Shown one piece after another: positions 57,249-62,742 of a stretch of DNA of 64,000 nt (position 1 is the stretch's first letter; each line of letters begins with the position of its first letter). This stretch comes from Sulfitobacter aestuariivivens (GTDB taxonomy: Bacteria; Pseudomonadota; Alphaproteobacteria; Rhodobacterales; Rhodobacteraceae): contig NZ_JACTAG010000001.1 in NCBI RefSeq assembly GCF_014763045.1, positions 868,001 to 932,000 of the forward strand, written 5' to 3'. Under the pieces are notes generated by a model. The model was not told the DNA's origin and did not search any database. It worked only from the letters and a program-made list of their open reading frames with translations. The translations under genes and the position numbers were made by a program.

Positions 57249-57980
57249 TCACCCTTTGGCGGCACGGGCCGCAAAGACATCCCGCGCGAGGGTCTGCGTT
57301 TCCCGCTCTAGCGCACTGAGCCCCTCTGAAGTCGCATCCCCGTCGCCGTCTTCAAGCGCATCCGCGATCCGTTCATGCAGTGCGATAATCTGCGCGCGGT
57401 CGCGGGCTGTGAAGGTGATCATGTTCATGAGTGGCTGCATGGCCTCTACTGCGCCTGCCAACTGGTAGCTGAGCACAGGATTGCCTGCGCCATCCACGAG
57501 CGCGCGGTGAAAAGTCACGTCAGAGGCGCAAAATGCCTCGTCGGTGAGACCGGGCTGTCCCTGACGATGGATTTCCGCGCGCATCGCCGCCAGATGATCC
57601 GCCGTGCGCCGTTTGGCTGATAGCGGGGCGCAGGCGCGTTCAAGCGAAAACCGCGCCTCACAGGCGGTCTCAAAGCTGACAGCGTTCATCGACAAGAGCA
57701 GAATGGAAGTGGTTATCTGCTGAACCTGCGCGGCCTCAAAGCTGATACGGTTTACAAACGCGCCGCCCGTCGCCCCCCGCTGGGTCCGGATAAGCGACTG
57801 CGCGGCCAGACGCTTGAGCGCCTCGCGCACAGTCGGACGCGAGACGTTGAAATGTTCCGCCAGTTCCGCCTCTGACGGCAGACGTTCATCGACGATAAGC
57901 CGCCCCTCGACGATGGAATCGCGTATCGCGGCGGCAATCTGGGCCGACAAGTCGGCAGGGCTGTCATGATCAATTTTCAT
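57249..57980 (-). CDS. GntR/FadR-type transcriptional regulator (FCD domain)
   Basis: A 243-residue regulator. N-terminal GntR wHTH (AAAIRDSIVEGRLIVDERLPSEAELAEHFNVSRPTVREALKRL), then an all-helical FCD domain (residues ~95-235) with the metal-ligand pattern in DVTFHRALVDGAGNPVL and IALHERIADAL. FCD proteins bind small carboxylates. It is divergent from the DUF2182-dmdA-acuI run with two matching candidate operators in the 90-bp gap, so it likely represses that operon and itself. A role in sensing acrylate or DMSP derivatives is inferred by analogy to the GntR gene next to dmdA in Ruegeria pomeroyi. Confidence 0.9.
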   Translation of the reverse strand: MKIDHDSPADLSAQIAAAIRDSIVEGRLIVDERLPSEAELAEHFNVSRPTVREALKRLAAQSLIRTQRGATGGAFVNRISFEAAQVQQITTSILLLSMNAVSFETACEARFSLERACAPLSAKRRTADHLAAMRAEIHRQGQPGLTDEAFCASDVTFHRALVDGAGNPVLSYQLAGAVEAMQPLMNMITFTARDRAQIIALHERIADALEDGDGDATSEGLSALERETQTLARDVFAARAAKG

Positions 57981-57981
57981 A

Positions 57982-58023
57982 TGTCTTACATTTACTGTTT
58001 GCCCGGAATCTAATTGTCTGACA
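57982..58023. promoter_or_regulatory. Two candidate operators for the GntR/FCD regulator
   Basis: TGTCTTACA (57982-57990) and TGTCTGACA (58015-58023) differ by one base, and both are inverted or near-inverted repeats (TGTC / GACA); the first is extended as ATGT...ACAT. Their spacing is 33 bases, about three helical turns. The pair occupies the 90-bp gap between the regulator and the DUF2182 gene. Confidence 0.5.
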
Positions 58024-58070: not shown

Positions 58071-58856
58071 ATGAACCCTGCACTGCGCTCTACCTGCTGG
58101 CTGGCCTTCTTTGCCGCTGTGCTGAGCGCGTGGTGGATGATGGTCATGATTTCCACGGATATGGACCTTGATTTGCTGGGCCGCCCCGGTGCCATGGGCG
58201 AGATGATGCGGCAGATGGATCCGCGCATGGACATGCGCATGCCCATGGCCGAATTCGGGCCGCTGTTTGTTATGTGGGCAGCGATGATGGCCGCAATGAT
58301 GTTACCAACAATGGTTCCCACGCTACGCAGCTACGAAGACCTGATGGTCAGTGCCAATGGCAGTCGGGCAGGGTGGCTGGGGGTGCTGCTGGGCTATTTC
58401 ATTGTCTGGGTCGCTTTTGCTGCACTGATCGCCGGCGTTCAGCTGGCACTGCTTTTCGGTGGTGTGATCGACATGCTGGGGATCGCCAAATCGCGTTGGT
58501 TTGCGGCAGCGCTGTTGCTGGCAGTTGGCCTTTTTCAGTTTACCCGCGCCAAGGAAATTTGCCACGGCGTCTGCCATTCGCCAATGATGTACTTCATGGG
58601 CAACTGGCGCACCGGCTTTCCGGGCGGGCTGCGCATGGGGCTGGGGTTGGGCGTCTTTTGCGTGGGATGTTGCTGGGGTTTCATGGCGCTGGGGTTTGCC
58701 GGTGGCGTAATGAATCTGGCGTGGATGGGGCTGGCCACACTCTTCATGGTGCTGGAAAAGCTACCTCAAATCGGACATCTTGTGACGAAACCAATGGGGA
58801 TTGCCCTGATCTGCGGCGCGGGCGTCGTGGCGGCATGGCCCCTGATAACAACGTGA
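58071..58856 (+). CDS. DUF2182 Met/Cys-rich membrane protein
   Basis: A 261-residue integral membrane protein with about six helices. It is rich in methionine (for example MRQMDPRMDMRMPM and FVMWAAMMAAMMLPTMVP) and has Cys/His sites (EICHGVCHSPMM and CVGCCWGFM), which match DUF2182 family 'predicted metal-binding' proteins. Copper or another soft metal is plausible, but unproved. It is followed by DUF1326 after 16 bases, a common pair. No Shine-Dalgarno stands out before the ATG. Head gene of the operon-like run. Confidence 0.88.
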   Translation: MNPALRSTCWLAFFAAVLSAWWMMVMISTDMDLDLLGRPGAMGEMMRQMDPRMDMRMPMAEFGPLFVMWAAMMAAMMLPTMVPTLRSYEDLMVSANGSRAGWLGVLLGYFIVWVAFAALIAGVQLALLFGGVIDMLGIAKSRWFAAALLLAVGLFQFTRAKEICHGVCHSPMMYFMGNWRTGFPGGLRMGLGLGVFCVGCCWGFMALGFAGGVMNLAWMGLATLFMVLEKLPQIGHLVTKPMGIALICGAGVVAAWPLITT

Positions 58857-58872
58857 TTTCAGGAGGAACATA

Positions 58873-59583
58873 ATGCCACCCAAAAAGCGCCCCGACGCGG
58901 ATCGCTTGCCGATCTCGCAACGCATCGACAGCCGTATGGAGAACCCGGGCCGTCGTCGAATGAACCCAACGAACTGGGAAATCAAAGGCGAGCTGTTCAT
59001 GAACTGCTCGTGCGAGGTGGTCTGCCCTTGCGGTATTTCGCTTGGCCAGCATCCACCGACCTATGGCTATTGTCAGACTTGGTTTGCCATGCAGATCGAC
59101 GAAGGCAATTTTGAGGGCGAAAGCCTGGACGGCCTGAACGTCGCTCTTTTGATCGACATTCCGGGGCGCATGGCCGAAGGCAACTGGAAAGTTGCCGCCT
59201 ATGTCGATGAAAGTGCAAGTGGCAAAGCGTATAACGGTATACTGCAGATCCTGACGGGTGCCGCTGGCGGCAATACAGGCGTATTCAATTTCCTCGTTTC
59301 TGAGATTTTGGGCGCTGAGCGTGAAAAGGTCATCATCGAACGCGACGGTCGCCGCCGCCGAATCATTGTTGGTCGCAAGATCCAGGGTGAAATTGAGATG
59401 ATTCCCGGGAAAGACCCCGAGACGCCGGTGTCCATGCAAAACACTCAGTACTGGATGGGCCCCACGATCTATCCTGCAGTTGGATTGAAATCCAAGGTGC
59501 GTGATTATGGCCGTGTCTGGGATTTCGAGGGCAAGTCCGGTGATATCATTCCCATTCATTGGGCTGGCCCCGGCCGGATATGA
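58873..59583 (+). CDS. DUF1326-domain Cys-rich protein
   Basis: A 236-residue soluble protein of the DUF1326 family. Near residue 45 it has the cluster NCSCEVVCPCG, and a further Cys in YGYCQTW, typical of the family and suited to binding a metal. The remaining part is beta-rich (VALLIDIPGRMAEGNWKVAAYVDE). It is preceded by AGGAGG and ends in an ATGA overlap with the DinB gene. DUF2182 and DUF1326 are often neighbours in Proteobacteria, suggesting they work together; no reaction is known to me. Confidence 0.88.
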   Translation: MPPKKRPDADRLPISQRIDSRMENPGRRRMNPTNWEIKGELFMNCSCEVVCPCGISLGQHPPTYGYCQTWFAMQIDEGNFEGESLDGLNVALLIDIPGRMAEGNWKVAAYVDESASGKAYNGILQILTGAAGGNTGVFNFLVSEILGAEREKVIIERDGRRRRIIVGRKIQGEIEMIPGKDPETPVSMQNTQYWMGPTIYPAVGLKSKVRDYGRVWDFEGKSGDIIPIHWAGPGRI

Positions 59584-60089
59584 TCACGGCGACGTATGTC
59601 CGGACCATGGCGCGCTATAATGCGTGGCAGAACAGTCAGTTGATGCCGGTTGTTGATGGTATGGATCAGGCGGAACTGGACCGCGACCGCGGTGCCTTCT
59701 TCGGGTCCATCCAAGGCACATTGAGCCATCTGTTGTGGGGGGATCTGTTGTGGATGTCGCGGTTCGATCCGCAGTGTCCCGCGCCCGAAGGGCCATTTGA
59801 CCGCAGCCGCGGCAATTTTCCCACGCGCACCGACTGGCTCTCGGAACGCGCGGCTTGTGACAGCCGCATCCGTCGCTGGGCGGACGCGTTGCAGACGGGT
59901 GACCTTGATGGCGCGGTCAGTTGGTATTCCGAAGCAGCCGGTGAGGACTTTTCCAAGCCCCTGACCGATTGCATCGTTCACGTTTTCAACCACCAGATCC
60001 ATCACCGGGGCCAGGTGCACGCCATGCTGACCGCAGCAGGTCAGAACGCGCCGGTGACCGATCTGCCCTTCATGCCGGAGCACCTTTGA
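59580..60089 (+). CDS. DinB-family protein
   Basis: A 169-residue four-helix-bundle protein. Metal ligands are SHLLWGD (His) and HVFNHQIHHRGQVHAML (HxxxH), the DinB triad. Family members include thiol-dependent S-transferases using bacillithiol or other thiols. Here it overlaps DUF1326 (ATGA) and dmdA (TGATG), so tight coupling with both is clear. Its job in a DMSP operon is unknown. Confidence 0.85.
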   Translation: MITATYVRTMARYNAWQNSQLMPVVDGMDQAELDRDRGAFFGSIQGTLSHLLWGDLLWMSRFDPQCPAPEGPFDRSRGNFPTRTDWLSERAACDSRIRRWADALQTGDLDGAVSWYSEAAGEDFSKPLTDCIVHVFNHQIHHRGQVHAMLTAAGQNAPVTDLPFMPEHL

Positions 60090-61192
60090 TGGCATTGATT
60101 ACCCCCTCCCGCCGTTTGCGTCGCACGCCCTTTTCCGATGGTGTCGAAGCCGCCGGAGTTAAAGCCTATACCGTTTACAACAGGATGTTGCTGCCGACGG
60201 TTTTCGAAAGCGTTCAGGAAGACTACCATCACCTTAAATCCGCCGTGCAGGTATGGGATGTCTCGTGCGAGCGACAGGTTGAAATGCGCGGACCGGACAG
60301 CGCGCGCCTGATGCAGATGCTGACCCCGCGCGACCTGCGCGGCATGTTGCCGGGACGATGCTTTTACGTCCCCATCGTCGATGAGACGGGCGGCATGCTG
60401 AACGATCCGGTCGCGGTAAAATTGGCAGAAGATCGCTGGTGGGTCTCGATCGCAGACAGCGATCTGCTGTTGTGGATCAAGGGGATTGCAAATGGTTACC
60501 GGCTGGATGTGCTGGTGGACGAGCCAGACGTGAGCCCACTGGCTGTGCAGGGACCAAAAGCCGAAGATCTGATGGCGCGTGTATTTGGTGACGCGGTGCG
60601 CGAAGTGCGATTTTTCCGCTTTGGTATGTTTGACTTTCAGGGGCGGTCACTGGTCGTGGCGCGGTCTGGCTATTCGAAACAGGGTGGCTATGAGATCTAT
60701 CTGGAAGGGGGCGATCTTGGGATGCCCCTGTGGAATGCACTCTTCGACGCAGGAGCAGATCTGGATGTGCGGGCGGGCTGTCCTAATGGTATCGAACGCA
60801 TCGAGGGCGGTCTGCTGAGTTACGGCAATGACATGACCGACGACAATACGCCCCACGAATGTGGGCTGGGTCGGTTCTGTGACACGCAGACAGCGATTGG
60901 GTGCATCGGACGGGACGCCTTGCTTCGGGTTGCTAAAGAGGGGCCGGTTCAGCAGATTCGACCACTTGTGATTGACGGCGATCCCCTGCCGGGCAGTGAT
61001 CGGCCCTGGGCGTTGACCGCAGGCGGGCGCAGCGTGGGGCAGGTGACCTCGGCCAATTATTCGCCTGACTTTGAGAGTAACATCGCGATCGGCATGGTGC
61101 GCATGACCCATTGGGACGCGGGCAATTCGATGGAGGTCCACACGCCCGACGGGACGCGTCAGGCGGTTGTACGGGACGCATTCTGGGCGTAA
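60089..61192 (+). CDS. dmdA: DMSP demethylase DmdA
   Basis: A 367-residue member of the GcvT-fold aminomethyltransferase family, and close to DmdA of SAR11 and roseobacters across its length: PSRRLRRTPFSDGVEAAGVK, the WDVSCERQVEMRG start region, GGMLNDPVAVKLAED, and IERIEGGLLSYGND. DmdA moves a methyl group from dimethylsulfoniopropionate to tetrahydrofolate, giving methylmercaptopropionate. GcvT or sarcosine-type relatives are the main alternatives, but the next gene acuI supports dmdA. The ATG shares a base with the DinB stop. Later pathway genes dmdBCD are not in the window. Confidence 0.88.
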   Translation: MALITPSRRLRRTPFSDGVEAAGVKAYTVYNRMLLPTVFESVQEDYHHLKSAVQVWDVSCERQVEMRGPDSARLMQMLTPRDLRGMLPGRCFYVPIVDETGGMLNDPVAVKLAEDRWWVSIADSDLLLWIKGIANGYRLDVLVDEPDVSPLAVQGPKAEDLMARVFGDAVREVRFFRFGMFDFQGRSLVVARSGYSKQGGYEIYLEGGDLGMPLWNALFDAGADLDVRAGCPNGIERIEGGLLSYGNDMTDDNTPHECGLGRFCDTQTAIGCIGRDALLRVAKEGPVQQIRPLVIDGDPLPGSDRPWALTAGGRSVGQVTSANYSPDFESNIAIGMVRMTHWDAGNSMEVHTPDGTRQAVVRDAFWA

Positions 61193-61217: not shown

Positions 61218-61253
61218 CGGGGCGCTGCCCCGGACCCCGAGATATTTGAAAAA
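61218..61253. repeat. GC-rich hairpin element between dmdA and acuI
   Basis: CGGGGC-GCT-GCCCCG hairpin, then GACCCCGAGATATTTGAA, the same plan as the elements at 8585 and 17717 with a different loop. It ends about 18 bases before the acuI start and directly ahead of its ribosome site, so it could weaken or terminate transcription between dmdA and acuI. Confidence 0.6.
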
Positions 61254-61270
61254 GGGTGAAGGAGAAGGTG

Positions 61271-62257
61271 ATGGGATTCAACGCATTGTTGGTGCGCAAG
61301 GACGACGAGGGCAAGACATCCGCGGCGGTGGAGCAGATCACCGAAGACCAGCTTCCTGACGGGGATGTGACTGTCGCGGTTGAGTATTCCACAGTCAACT
61401 ACAAGGATGGACTTTGCCTTGGTCCTGGTGGCGGTTTGGTGCGCAATTATCCGCATGTGCCGGGGATCGATTTTGCAGGGACAGTAGAGGCGTCGAATGA
61501 TGATCGCTATGCGCCAGGCGACAAGGTTGTCCTGACCGGCTGGCGTGTCGGCGAAGCGCATTGGGGAGGCTATGCCCAAAAGGCGCGAGTCAAGGCCGAT
61601 TGGCTGGTTCCACTGCCTGAGGGACTTGATACCCGCTTGGCAATGGCCGTGGGCACGGCCGGATTTACGGCCATGCTCGCGGTGATGGCACTCGAATATC
61701 ACGGCATCAAGGGCGGGCCGGTATTGGTCACCGGAGCGGCCGGTGGAGTAGGCTCAGTCGCTGTAGCGATCCTGTCAGCTCTGGGGCATGAGGTTGCGGG
61801 CGTTACCGGACGACCGGAGACTGCGGATTATCTCAAGAGCCTTGGGGCCAGCCAGATCGTGGCCCGGGAAGACATCAACGAGACGACCAAACGCCCGTTA
61901 GAAGGCGAGACGTGGGGGGGATGTGTGGATGCGGTTGGCGGGCCGATGCTGGCGCGTGTTCTGGGACAGATGGAATACGGCGCCTCTGTCGCTGCCGTTG
62001 GTCTCGCGGGGGGTGCTGGTCTGCCAGCGACAGTTATACCTTTCCTGCTGCGGGGCGTGAACCTGCTCGGCATCGACAGCGTCATGCAGCCCTATGAAAA
62101 CCGGCTGCGCGCCTGGGAACGGATTTCCCAGGATCTGCCGATGGACAAACTCGAAGCCATGGTGCAGCCCGCGACGCTGACGGATCTGCCTAAGTTGGGG
62201 GCGGACATCCTGAAAGGCCAGGTCAAAGGCCGCGTGGTCGTCGACGTCAACGCATGA
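61271..62257 (+). CDS. acuI: Acryloyl-CoA reductase AcuI
   Basis: A 328-residue MDR-superfamily zinc-free oxidoreductase of the YhdH/AcuI group. NADPH site VTGAAGGVGSVAVAIL, substrate-side STVNYKDGLCLG and PGIDFAGTVEASND, and GLAGGAGLPATVIPFLLRGVNLLGIDS near the end. AcuI reduces toxic acryloyl-CoA to propionyl-CoA; in Ruegeria pomeroyi it is cotranscribed with dmdA. AGGAGAAGG precedes the ATG at 61271. It overlaps the next gene by four bases. Confidence 0.92.
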   Translation: MGFNALLVRKDDEGKTSAAVEQITEDQLPDGDVTVAVEYSTVNYKDGLCLGPGGGLVRNYPHVPGIDFAGTVEASNDDRYAPGDKVVLTGWRVGEAHWGGYAQKARVKADWLVPLPEGLDTRLAMAVGTAGFTAMLAVMALEYHGIKGGPVLVTGAAGGVGSVAVAILSALGHEVAGVTGRPETADYLKSLGASQIVAREDINETTKRPLEGETWGGCVDAVGGPMLARVLGQMEYGASVAAVGLAGGAGLPATVIPFLLRGVNLLGIDSVMQPYENRLRAWERISQDLPMDKLEAMVQPATLTDLPKLGADILKGQVKGRVVVDVNA

Positions 62258-62742
62258 TTGCGCGCGCTGTCCCCGTGCCCCTCGATGCGCTCTTGCAGCG
62301 CTATGTGGGAAACGGGGATACCTATACCGATGCCTTTGAAGTGATGTCGCCCTATGCGGTTGATCTGGAGGCCTTTATCGAGGCCTTTTATACCACCTGG
62401 CTGTTCCGGCTGGAGCGGTGGGTGCTGACGCTGACCCTGCGGAGACGGATCAGAGACAGCGATGTCGTTGCATTGGCATCAGGGGCCGACCGTTTCGCAG
62501 CTTGGCGTGTAGAAGCGCGGGAGGCCGGGCAGATCCTGCTTTGCGATCACTCCGGTGCCACGCGGTCCTGGCTTGCGGTCTCGCCAAAGGATGGTGGGGC
62601 GACACGCCTGATTTTCGGATCAGCGGTGGTCGCCGCCGAAGGAAAAGGTTTGGGCCGTCTCGTTTGGCTGCTGATCCCGCTACACCGCTTGTATGCGCGC
62701 GCCCTTTTGCGGCTGGCCGAGCAGCGCTTGCGCTTTACCTGA
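62254..62742 (+). CDS. Hypothetical protein in the dmdA-acuI run
   Basis: A 162-residue protein (DAFEVMSPYAVDLEAFIEAFYT...RIRDSDVVALASGADRFAAWRV...RSWLAVSPKDGGATRLIFGSA). The overall look is DUF2867-like, small polyketide-cyclase/SRPBCC-type, but I cannot name the family with confidence. ATG overlaps the acuI stop (ATGA), so it is coupled. No signal peptide; a C-terminal amphipathic or weakly hydrophobic segment (LGRLVWLLIPLHRLYARALL) could touch the membrane. Confidence 0.7.
   Translation: MIARAVPVPLDALLQRYVGNGDTYTDAFEVMSPYAVDLEAFIEAFYTTWLFRLERWVLTLTLRRRIRDSDVVALASGADRFAAWRVEAREAGQILLCDHSGATRSWLAVSPKDGGATRLIFGSAVVAAEGKGLGRLVWLLIPLHRLYARALLRLAEQRLRFT

Follow-up and report, generated by a model that had tools for sequence, protein, structure and literature searches.

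The stretch analyzed here, 64,000 nucleotides (nt) of the Sulfitobacter aestuariivivens genome (family Rhodobacteraceae; contig NZ_JACTAG010000001.1, positions 868,001–932,000; hereafter the window), carries genes for DUF2182, DUF1326, and DinB proteins directly ahead of dmdA, which encodes dimethylsulfoniopropionate (DMSP) demethylase, and of an acuI-like gene for acryloyl-coenzyme A (acryloyl-CoA) reductase. Comparison of loci across the family indicates that DUF2182-DUF1326(-DinB) belongs to the usual dmdA operon of these bacteria. It showed a conserved gene order, a common predicted operator, and persistence of the module with acuI when dmdA is absent, and by this comparison the module is firmly tied to DMSP catabolism in the family. 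As for function, we estimate a probability of about 0.4 that DUF2182-DUF1326(-DinB) is a soft-metal/thiol protection module forming the 5′ part of a GntR-controlled dmdA-acuI operon in Roseobacter DMSP catabolism.

Conservation of the module ahead of dmdA

The family was sampled as 248 genomes representing 247 genera, which were searched by profile. DmdA over the curated cut-off was found in 106/248 genomes and PF09948, the family of DUF2182, in 131/248 (the PF09948 rows analyzed cover 130 of the 131). Of the 106 genomes with dmdA, 81 carry DUF2182 675–2338 nt upstream of that gene and in the same orientation; these 81 belong to different genera except for one pair within the window's own genus. 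The linked loci examined were 80, that is, the 81 minus the window's genome. All 80 had DUF1326 between DUF2182 and dmdA, while a divergent GntR gene was present in 65 and a downstream acuI-like gene in 72. DinB was found between DUF1326 and dmdA in 39/80 loci and after dmdA in 2/80. Judged from these loci, DUF2182-DUF1326 is the core of the module and DinB is an optional member. A scan of named genomes gave a similar picture: in the best 80 of 585 candidates, a choice that tilts toward near relatives, DUF2182-DUF1326 occurred in 79 and dmdA followed DUF1326 in 73. The genera included Ruegeria, Roseovarius, Marivita, Tateyamaria, and Sulfitobacter, and named Ruegeria species carry the module ahead of dmdA. 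A preliminary description of the window had regarded the three genes as inserted ahead of dmdA. A local insertion is rejected, since a like arrangement in 81/106 dmdA genomes makes it the usual dmdA operon of the family.

In the window, the gaps DUF2182/DUF1326/DinB/dmdA are exactly 16, −4, and −1 nt in the open reading frames (ORFs), and the motifs CHGVCHSPMM and CVGCC of DUF2182 and NCSCEVVCPCG of DUF1326 are found in the proteins, all as first described. Start codons were picked by rule; AGGAGG lies upstream of the DUF1326 start. DUF2182 scored 192.3 bits on PF09948 (cut-off 28.7) and DUF1326 162.3 bits on PF07040 (cut-off 25). The genes dmdA and acuI have the arrangement of a dmdA-acuI operon, with dmdA over its cut-off and a reductase passing TIGR02823 directly 3′ of it (Table 1). 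The reductase gene scored below the AcuI equivalog NF051456 (414.7 bits vs a cut-off of 440), a model that matched all 248 family genomes at E ≤ 0.001, other reductases included, and whose cut-off was passed in 30. The location of acuI directly 3′ of dmdA is like that in the dmdA-acuI operon of Roseobacters (PMC3338564). The available part of that source describes dmdA and acuI only, whereas here DUF2182-DUF1326(-DinB) forms the 5′ part, and it is also found with acuI alone. In the part of PMC7487153 at hand, dmdA seems to be part of a conserved operon.

Two further elements adjoin these genes in the window. A GC-rich palindromic repeat-like sequence (61219–61239) is present in the dmdA/acuI gap as the only copy in the window, and a gene at 62254–62742, overlapping acuI by 4 nt, encodes a 162-amino-acid (aa) protein with no Pfam match, for which the search otherwise matched locus L066 alone.

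Table 1. Features of the dmdA locus, in window positions
Feature	Position	Strand	Remarks
GntR/FCD-family regulator	57249..57980	-	PF00392 3.5e-19, PF07729 5.9e-20; divergent from module
Predicted GntR operator TGTCTGACA	58015..58023	no strand	between regulator and DUF2182
DUF2182/PpoB2-like Met/Cys-rich membrane protein, 261 aa	58071..58856	+	PF09948 9.9e-57
DUF1326 protein, 236 aa, CxCx3CPC site	58873..59583	+	PF07040 1.7e-47
DinB/YfiT-like protein, 169 aa, three-His site, optional member	59580..60089	+	PF05163 3.4e-22
dmdA, DMSP demethylase	60089..61192	+	NF009133 685.7 bits, cut-off 410
acuI-like acryloyl-CoA reductase	61265..62257	+	TIGR02823 443.9 bits, cut-off 297.25

Transcription and the predicted operator

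The pooled loci include genomes present both with and without a name, so that the n of the gap and operator counts are not all independent of one another, and neither are genera. In these loci, the median DUF2182-DUF1326 gap was 10 nt (n = 194), that of DUF1326-DinB −4 (n = 114), DinB-DmdA 0 (n = 97), and DmdA-AcuI 67 (n = 143). Where DinB was missing, the median DUF1326-DmdA gap was 80 nt (n = 57; 15 exceed 150 nt). The palindrome TGTCNGACA was found in the GntR-DUF2182 gap at 125/144 loci, with a mean of 0 over 10 rounds of shuffling, in the DUF1326-dmdA stretch at 2/158, and in the upstream regions of the reverse-order pairs (type B, see below) at 1/25. DmdA scoring >300 bits was missing from 15 of these 144 loci, and the site was found in 12 of these 15; four of them (L269, L278, L283, and L306) are truncated or have a weaker DmdA match, and the site is present in 8 of the other 11. 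In the window alone the operator is weak, with 3 matches vs 0.82 expected, and scanning the window for promoters and terminators gave counts near chance (4 promoter-like sequences vs 2.3 expected, 4 terminator-like vs 4.7).

The operon link of the module to dmdA-acuI is near certain from gene arrangement. One transcript from DUF2182 through dmdA, as proposed in the preliminary description, is likely because the junctions are tight and the predicted operator lies almost only ahead of DUF2182. The long DUF1326-DmdA gaps leave space for what may be a second promoter in some genomes. In Ruegeria pomeroyi DSS-3, a 350-bp fragment ending inside dmdA was reported to carry the dmdA/acuI promoter (PMC3338564, in the part available), which fits a promoter near dmdA in that strain.

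Occurrence of the module with and without dmdA

Two arrangements of the pair were distinguished, type A with the order DUF2182-DUF1326 and type B, in which the order is reversed and DUF1326 scores lower. Assignment to type A was limited to the loci read up to the count, with 60 of the 68 unlinked DUF2182 rows covered; two more were read later. Most of the 60 further DUF2182 loci were type A or type B, 25 being classed as type B; in one, DUF2182 was flanked on either side by DUF1326, and in two no DUF1326 adjoined it. For dmdA rows without the module, 20 of 35 loci were read, followed by eight more. In total, the module was present in 114/248 genomes, leaving out one genome (G160, locus L342) with a module-like DUF2182 beside GntR. 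An association with DMSP catabolism is evident: dmdA was found in 88/114 module genomes vs 18/134 others (odds ratio 21.8; p 3.6e-25, a guide only, since genera share history).

A tie to dmdA as such was not supported. The gene is absent from 26/114 module genomes, and in a quickly built tree of 113 DUF1326 proteins the dmdA state changes at least 21 times and DinB changes 29 times, with 11 independent pairs differing in dmdA located on well-supported branches. Therefore, dmdA is the part that moves more readily on this tree, which does not distinguish its gain from its loss. Nor does the module occur at random in relatives without dmdA, an outcome that would have counted against the preliminary description: within the family, acuI (>400 bits, same strand, ≤4.5 kb downstream; 6 truncated loci excluded) follows at 71/80 module loci with adjoining dmdA and at 22/28 without, some of the 28 belonging to genomes that carry dmdA at another site. 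Among the 6 loci where acuI does not follow, two (L179 and L181) have it close by on the opposite strand.

The available part of PMC3338564 reports that dmdA-acuI of Ruegeria pomeroyi respond to DMSP and acrylate. A match to a cupin DMSP lyase (PF16867 over cut-off, where weak matches may be other cupins) was found among genomes without dmdA in 15/26 with the module vs 36/116 without it (p 0.013), and no difference was seen among dmdA genomes (42/88 vs 9/18). Either dmdA or a cupin match was present in 103/114 module genomes vs 54/134 others. In a joint regression, dmdA alone had an interval clear of zero.

Outside the family, a class-wide draw of 337 genomes was searched with the DUF1326 alignment at 1e-10, and 43 genomes matched; 8 of those outside the family scored ≥310 bits, as type A proteins do. 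One carries GntR, DUF2182, DUF1326, and dmdA, followed by acuI 1.8 kb on (L334), and another has DUF2182-DUF1326-dmdA (L336). In a third (L337), a partial DUF2182 is succeeded on one strand by DUF1326, then a CoA ligase, then an SBP56-family gene. DUF1326 occurs without DUF2182 in L340 and in reverse order in L341; in L338, a CoA ligase lies behind DUF1326. DmdA over the cut-off was found in 3/8 outside-family genomes and in a ninth genome checked, which is within the family. AMP-binding CoA ligases adjoin DUF1326 at L111:6107-7723 (-), L337:3757-5457 (-), and L338:4348-5973 (-). Those of L111 and L337 belong to the PRK08162 group, and neither passes the 3-(methylthio)propionyl-CoA ligase model; for the L111 ligase, located between DUF1326 and dmdA, identity as DmdB was not supported (761.5 bits on PRK08162, cut-off 677; 318.9 on the 3-(methylthio)propionyl-CoA ligase model, cut-off 822).

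Type B neighborhoods were inspected as a functional clue, and no common neighbor was found in 130 ORFs (of 140; 5 repeats and 5 long ORFs were left out). The commonest neighbor families were alpha/beta hydrolases (5), TetR (4), and GFA (3), with GST found twice. In the type B pairs L142-L160, L162, L164-L166, and L178, the CxCx3CPC site is kept, the following His is mostly absent, and there is no common neighborhood.

Protein features and possible functions

Alignments, each including the window protein, were built from 46 of 112 DUF1326 loci, 38 of 52 DinB loci, and 37 of 111 DUF2182 loci. C45, C47, C51, C53, H60, and C67 are invariant in DUF1326 (47 sequences), and the CxCx3CPC motif was found in 115/115 type A and 26/27 type B proteins. 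The structural model of DUF1326 has the predicted fold of the acetoacetate decarboxylase superfamily, like MppR, ADC, and Swit_4259; unlike these proteins, it has no conserved lysine, with the N-terminal CxCx3CPC site instead. The acetoacetate decarboxylase enzyme needs a catalytic lysine, and none was found in the invariant or nearly invariant columns of the 47 sequences. The best 120 of 1160 related proteins contained PF07040 only, with no domain fusions. In DUF2182, C164, C168, C197, C200, C201, M68, M72, M76, and M77 are invariant (38 sequences). Its model is all-helical and confident, and a search against PDB structures gave no clear match.

Pfam labels PF09948 PpoB2, "copper chaperone," and DUF2182 is in the same family as PpoB2 of Marinomonas mediterranea (COG5486; PMC2855505), for which the available part of the source gives a role in copper transfer to tyrosinase. 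There, the operon partner is the tyrosinase, whereas the partners of DUF2182 here are DUF1326, dmdA, and acuI. The window DinB has a three-His metal site (H50, H138, and H142), and the pattern is present in 52/55 homologues. It shares PF05163 and this pattern with the DinB/YfiT S-transferase-like superfamily (BstA-H; PMC5815605) and is remote in sequence from its solved members (best match 3di5, 3.4e-4). DinB-like bacillithiol transferases are reported to be metal dependent, with three conserved histidines (PMC5815605, in the part available). At locus L186 (7292-7792, +), a DinB in the usual place is without the second and third metal histidines.

A protective metal/thiol mechanism appears to be the most likely of several readings. 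The GntR-controlled promoter would read the module at the 5′ end of the dmdA-acuI operon. DUF1326, probably a soluble protein, could use its CxCx3CPC...H...C site to bind either a thiol or a soft metal, Cu(I) being the likeliest, and would exchange the metal or thiol ligand with the Met/Cys-rich membrane protein DUF2182; copper is suggested by the latter's namesake PpoB2. Together, the pair could guard the cell against metal-thiol and electrophile stress arising from methanethiol and acrylate/acryloyl-CoA, and DinB, where present, would act as a metal-dependent thiol S-transferase clearing electrophiles. For the thiol or metal step of the preliminary description, conservation is strict or almost strict at the Cys, Met, and His sites, while the chemistry itself is inferred. 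Several observations weigh against this mechanism. DinB is present in the DUF1326-dmdA interval in only 39/80 linked loci, and the window's DUF1326 is without the nearly invariant C226. The module is not essential to demethylation because 18/106 dmdA genomes do not have it; within the family, acuI comes after DUF2182 in L199, where DUF1326 is missing; and outside it, the 12.6 kb read at L335, L338, and L339 contained DUF2182-DUF1326 but no detected dmdA or acuI. Type B neighborhoods are unrelated, and no copper enzyme was found in the 25 most frequent of 117 neighbor families, so the copper reading draws on one homologue.

A serious rival, although we consider it unlikely, is that DUF1326, alone or together with DinB, acts as an enzyme on a pathway intermediate such as an acrylate-thiol or methylthio-acid adduct, using a decarboxylase-like pocket, with DUF2182 as a membrane partner or substrate mover. 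The predicted fold would offer such a pocket, but Schiff-base chemistry is not expected because no lysine is conserved, and the CxCx3CPC site is also found in type B proteins, for which no pathway link was seen. The all-helical DUF2182 model without a clear PDB match and the adjoining DUF1326 in 80/80 linked loci could also point to transport rather than metal buffering, with DUF2182 mainly carrying or exporting a small acid, a thiol, or a metal-thiol complex and DUF1326 serving as its soluble partner. This is improbable, since the invariant membrane Met and Cys residues would resemble metal ligands more than an organic-acid site. That the three genes are mere passengers, or co-regulated without a functional tie, is very improbable: the 25 pairs classed as type B, with no DMSP-gene link seen, would agree with it, but the order is kept in the 81 dmdA genomes described above, acuI is retained when dmdA is absent, and DUF2182-DUF1326-dmdA also occurs in two genomes of other families (L334 and L336).

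Loading of copper into an SBP56-family copper enzyme of methanethiol oxidation was considered as well, the methanethiol oxidase MtoX being copper dependent (PMC5739008, in the part available). In 22/54 Ruegeria genomes, an SBP56-family gene is directed away from DUF2182 at a constant 1135–1158 nt, distances taken for one DUF2182 row per genome by score class, not read at every locus, and for the ~555–590-bit SBP56 class, which gave 41 rows in 40 genomes, weak rows and the ~685-bit class being set aside. GntR lies between the two genes in the seven Ruegeria loci read (L359-L362, L367, L372, and L373). In the family draw, SBP56 is located behind GntR in L345, and L342 has an SBP56 fragment nearby in the other orientation. 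At L363, SBP56 comes after dmdA and has the same orientation; the one-strand run of L337 also favors such loading. SBP56, counted in 76 of 83 genomes (G023, G031, G037, G075, G184, G201, and G219 were left out as weak, divergent, or broken) and as the SBP56 family, not as MtoX, was found in 59/114 module genomes vs 17/134 others. Among genomes without dmdA there was a modest excess (7/26 vs 9/116, p 0.011). However, 55/114 module genomes have no counted SBP56, and within dmdA genomes the excess was not significant (52/88 vs 8/18, p 0.30). The linked SBP56 protein tested (L360:6121-7518) scored 96.7 bits on the MtoX equivalog NF052453, with a cut-off of 650, which weakens copper supply to MtoX as a general role. 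Besides, known mtoX clusters hold their own SCO1/SenC and MauG genes (PMC5739008, in the part available). The module and the mtoX cluster of that study have in common methanethiol from DMSP and an SBP56 protein near some modules, and they differ in that the SBP56 protein tested here fails the MtoX model. We consider this loading quite unlikely. Near SBP56, a gene at L370:5744-6400 (-) starting 4 bases past it encodes a hydrophobic protein of ~219 aa that matches nothing in Pfam or NCBIfam, and genes of similar size follow SBP56 in several other loci. At L343:5962-8560 (-), a divergent DUF2182-like gene lies behind SBP56 on the same strand.

Returning to metal/thiol protection, we tentatively suggest that an undescribed soft-metal/thiol system may be a third standing part of Roseobacter DMSP catabolism, needed against methanethiol and acryloyl-CoA, in which DUF1326 would represent a new type of Cys-cluster protein on an acetoacetate-decarboxylase-like fold and DinB an optional S-transferase. 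In the open-access literature searched, DUF1326, DUF2182, COG5588, PF09948, and PF07040 were not named and COG5486 was named only in PMC2855505; an earlier notice of the neighbors is possible. Since neither DUF1326 nor DUF2182 was named there, their function is now open to testing with a clear prediction. The balance of DMSP demethylation and cleavage sets how much marine sulfur leaves as dimethyl sulfide. Three little-studied genes, apparently for proteins that handle metals or thiols, in the usual operon with which many marine Roseobacters degrade algal DMSP point to an unexplained step in a major pathway of ocean sulfur.

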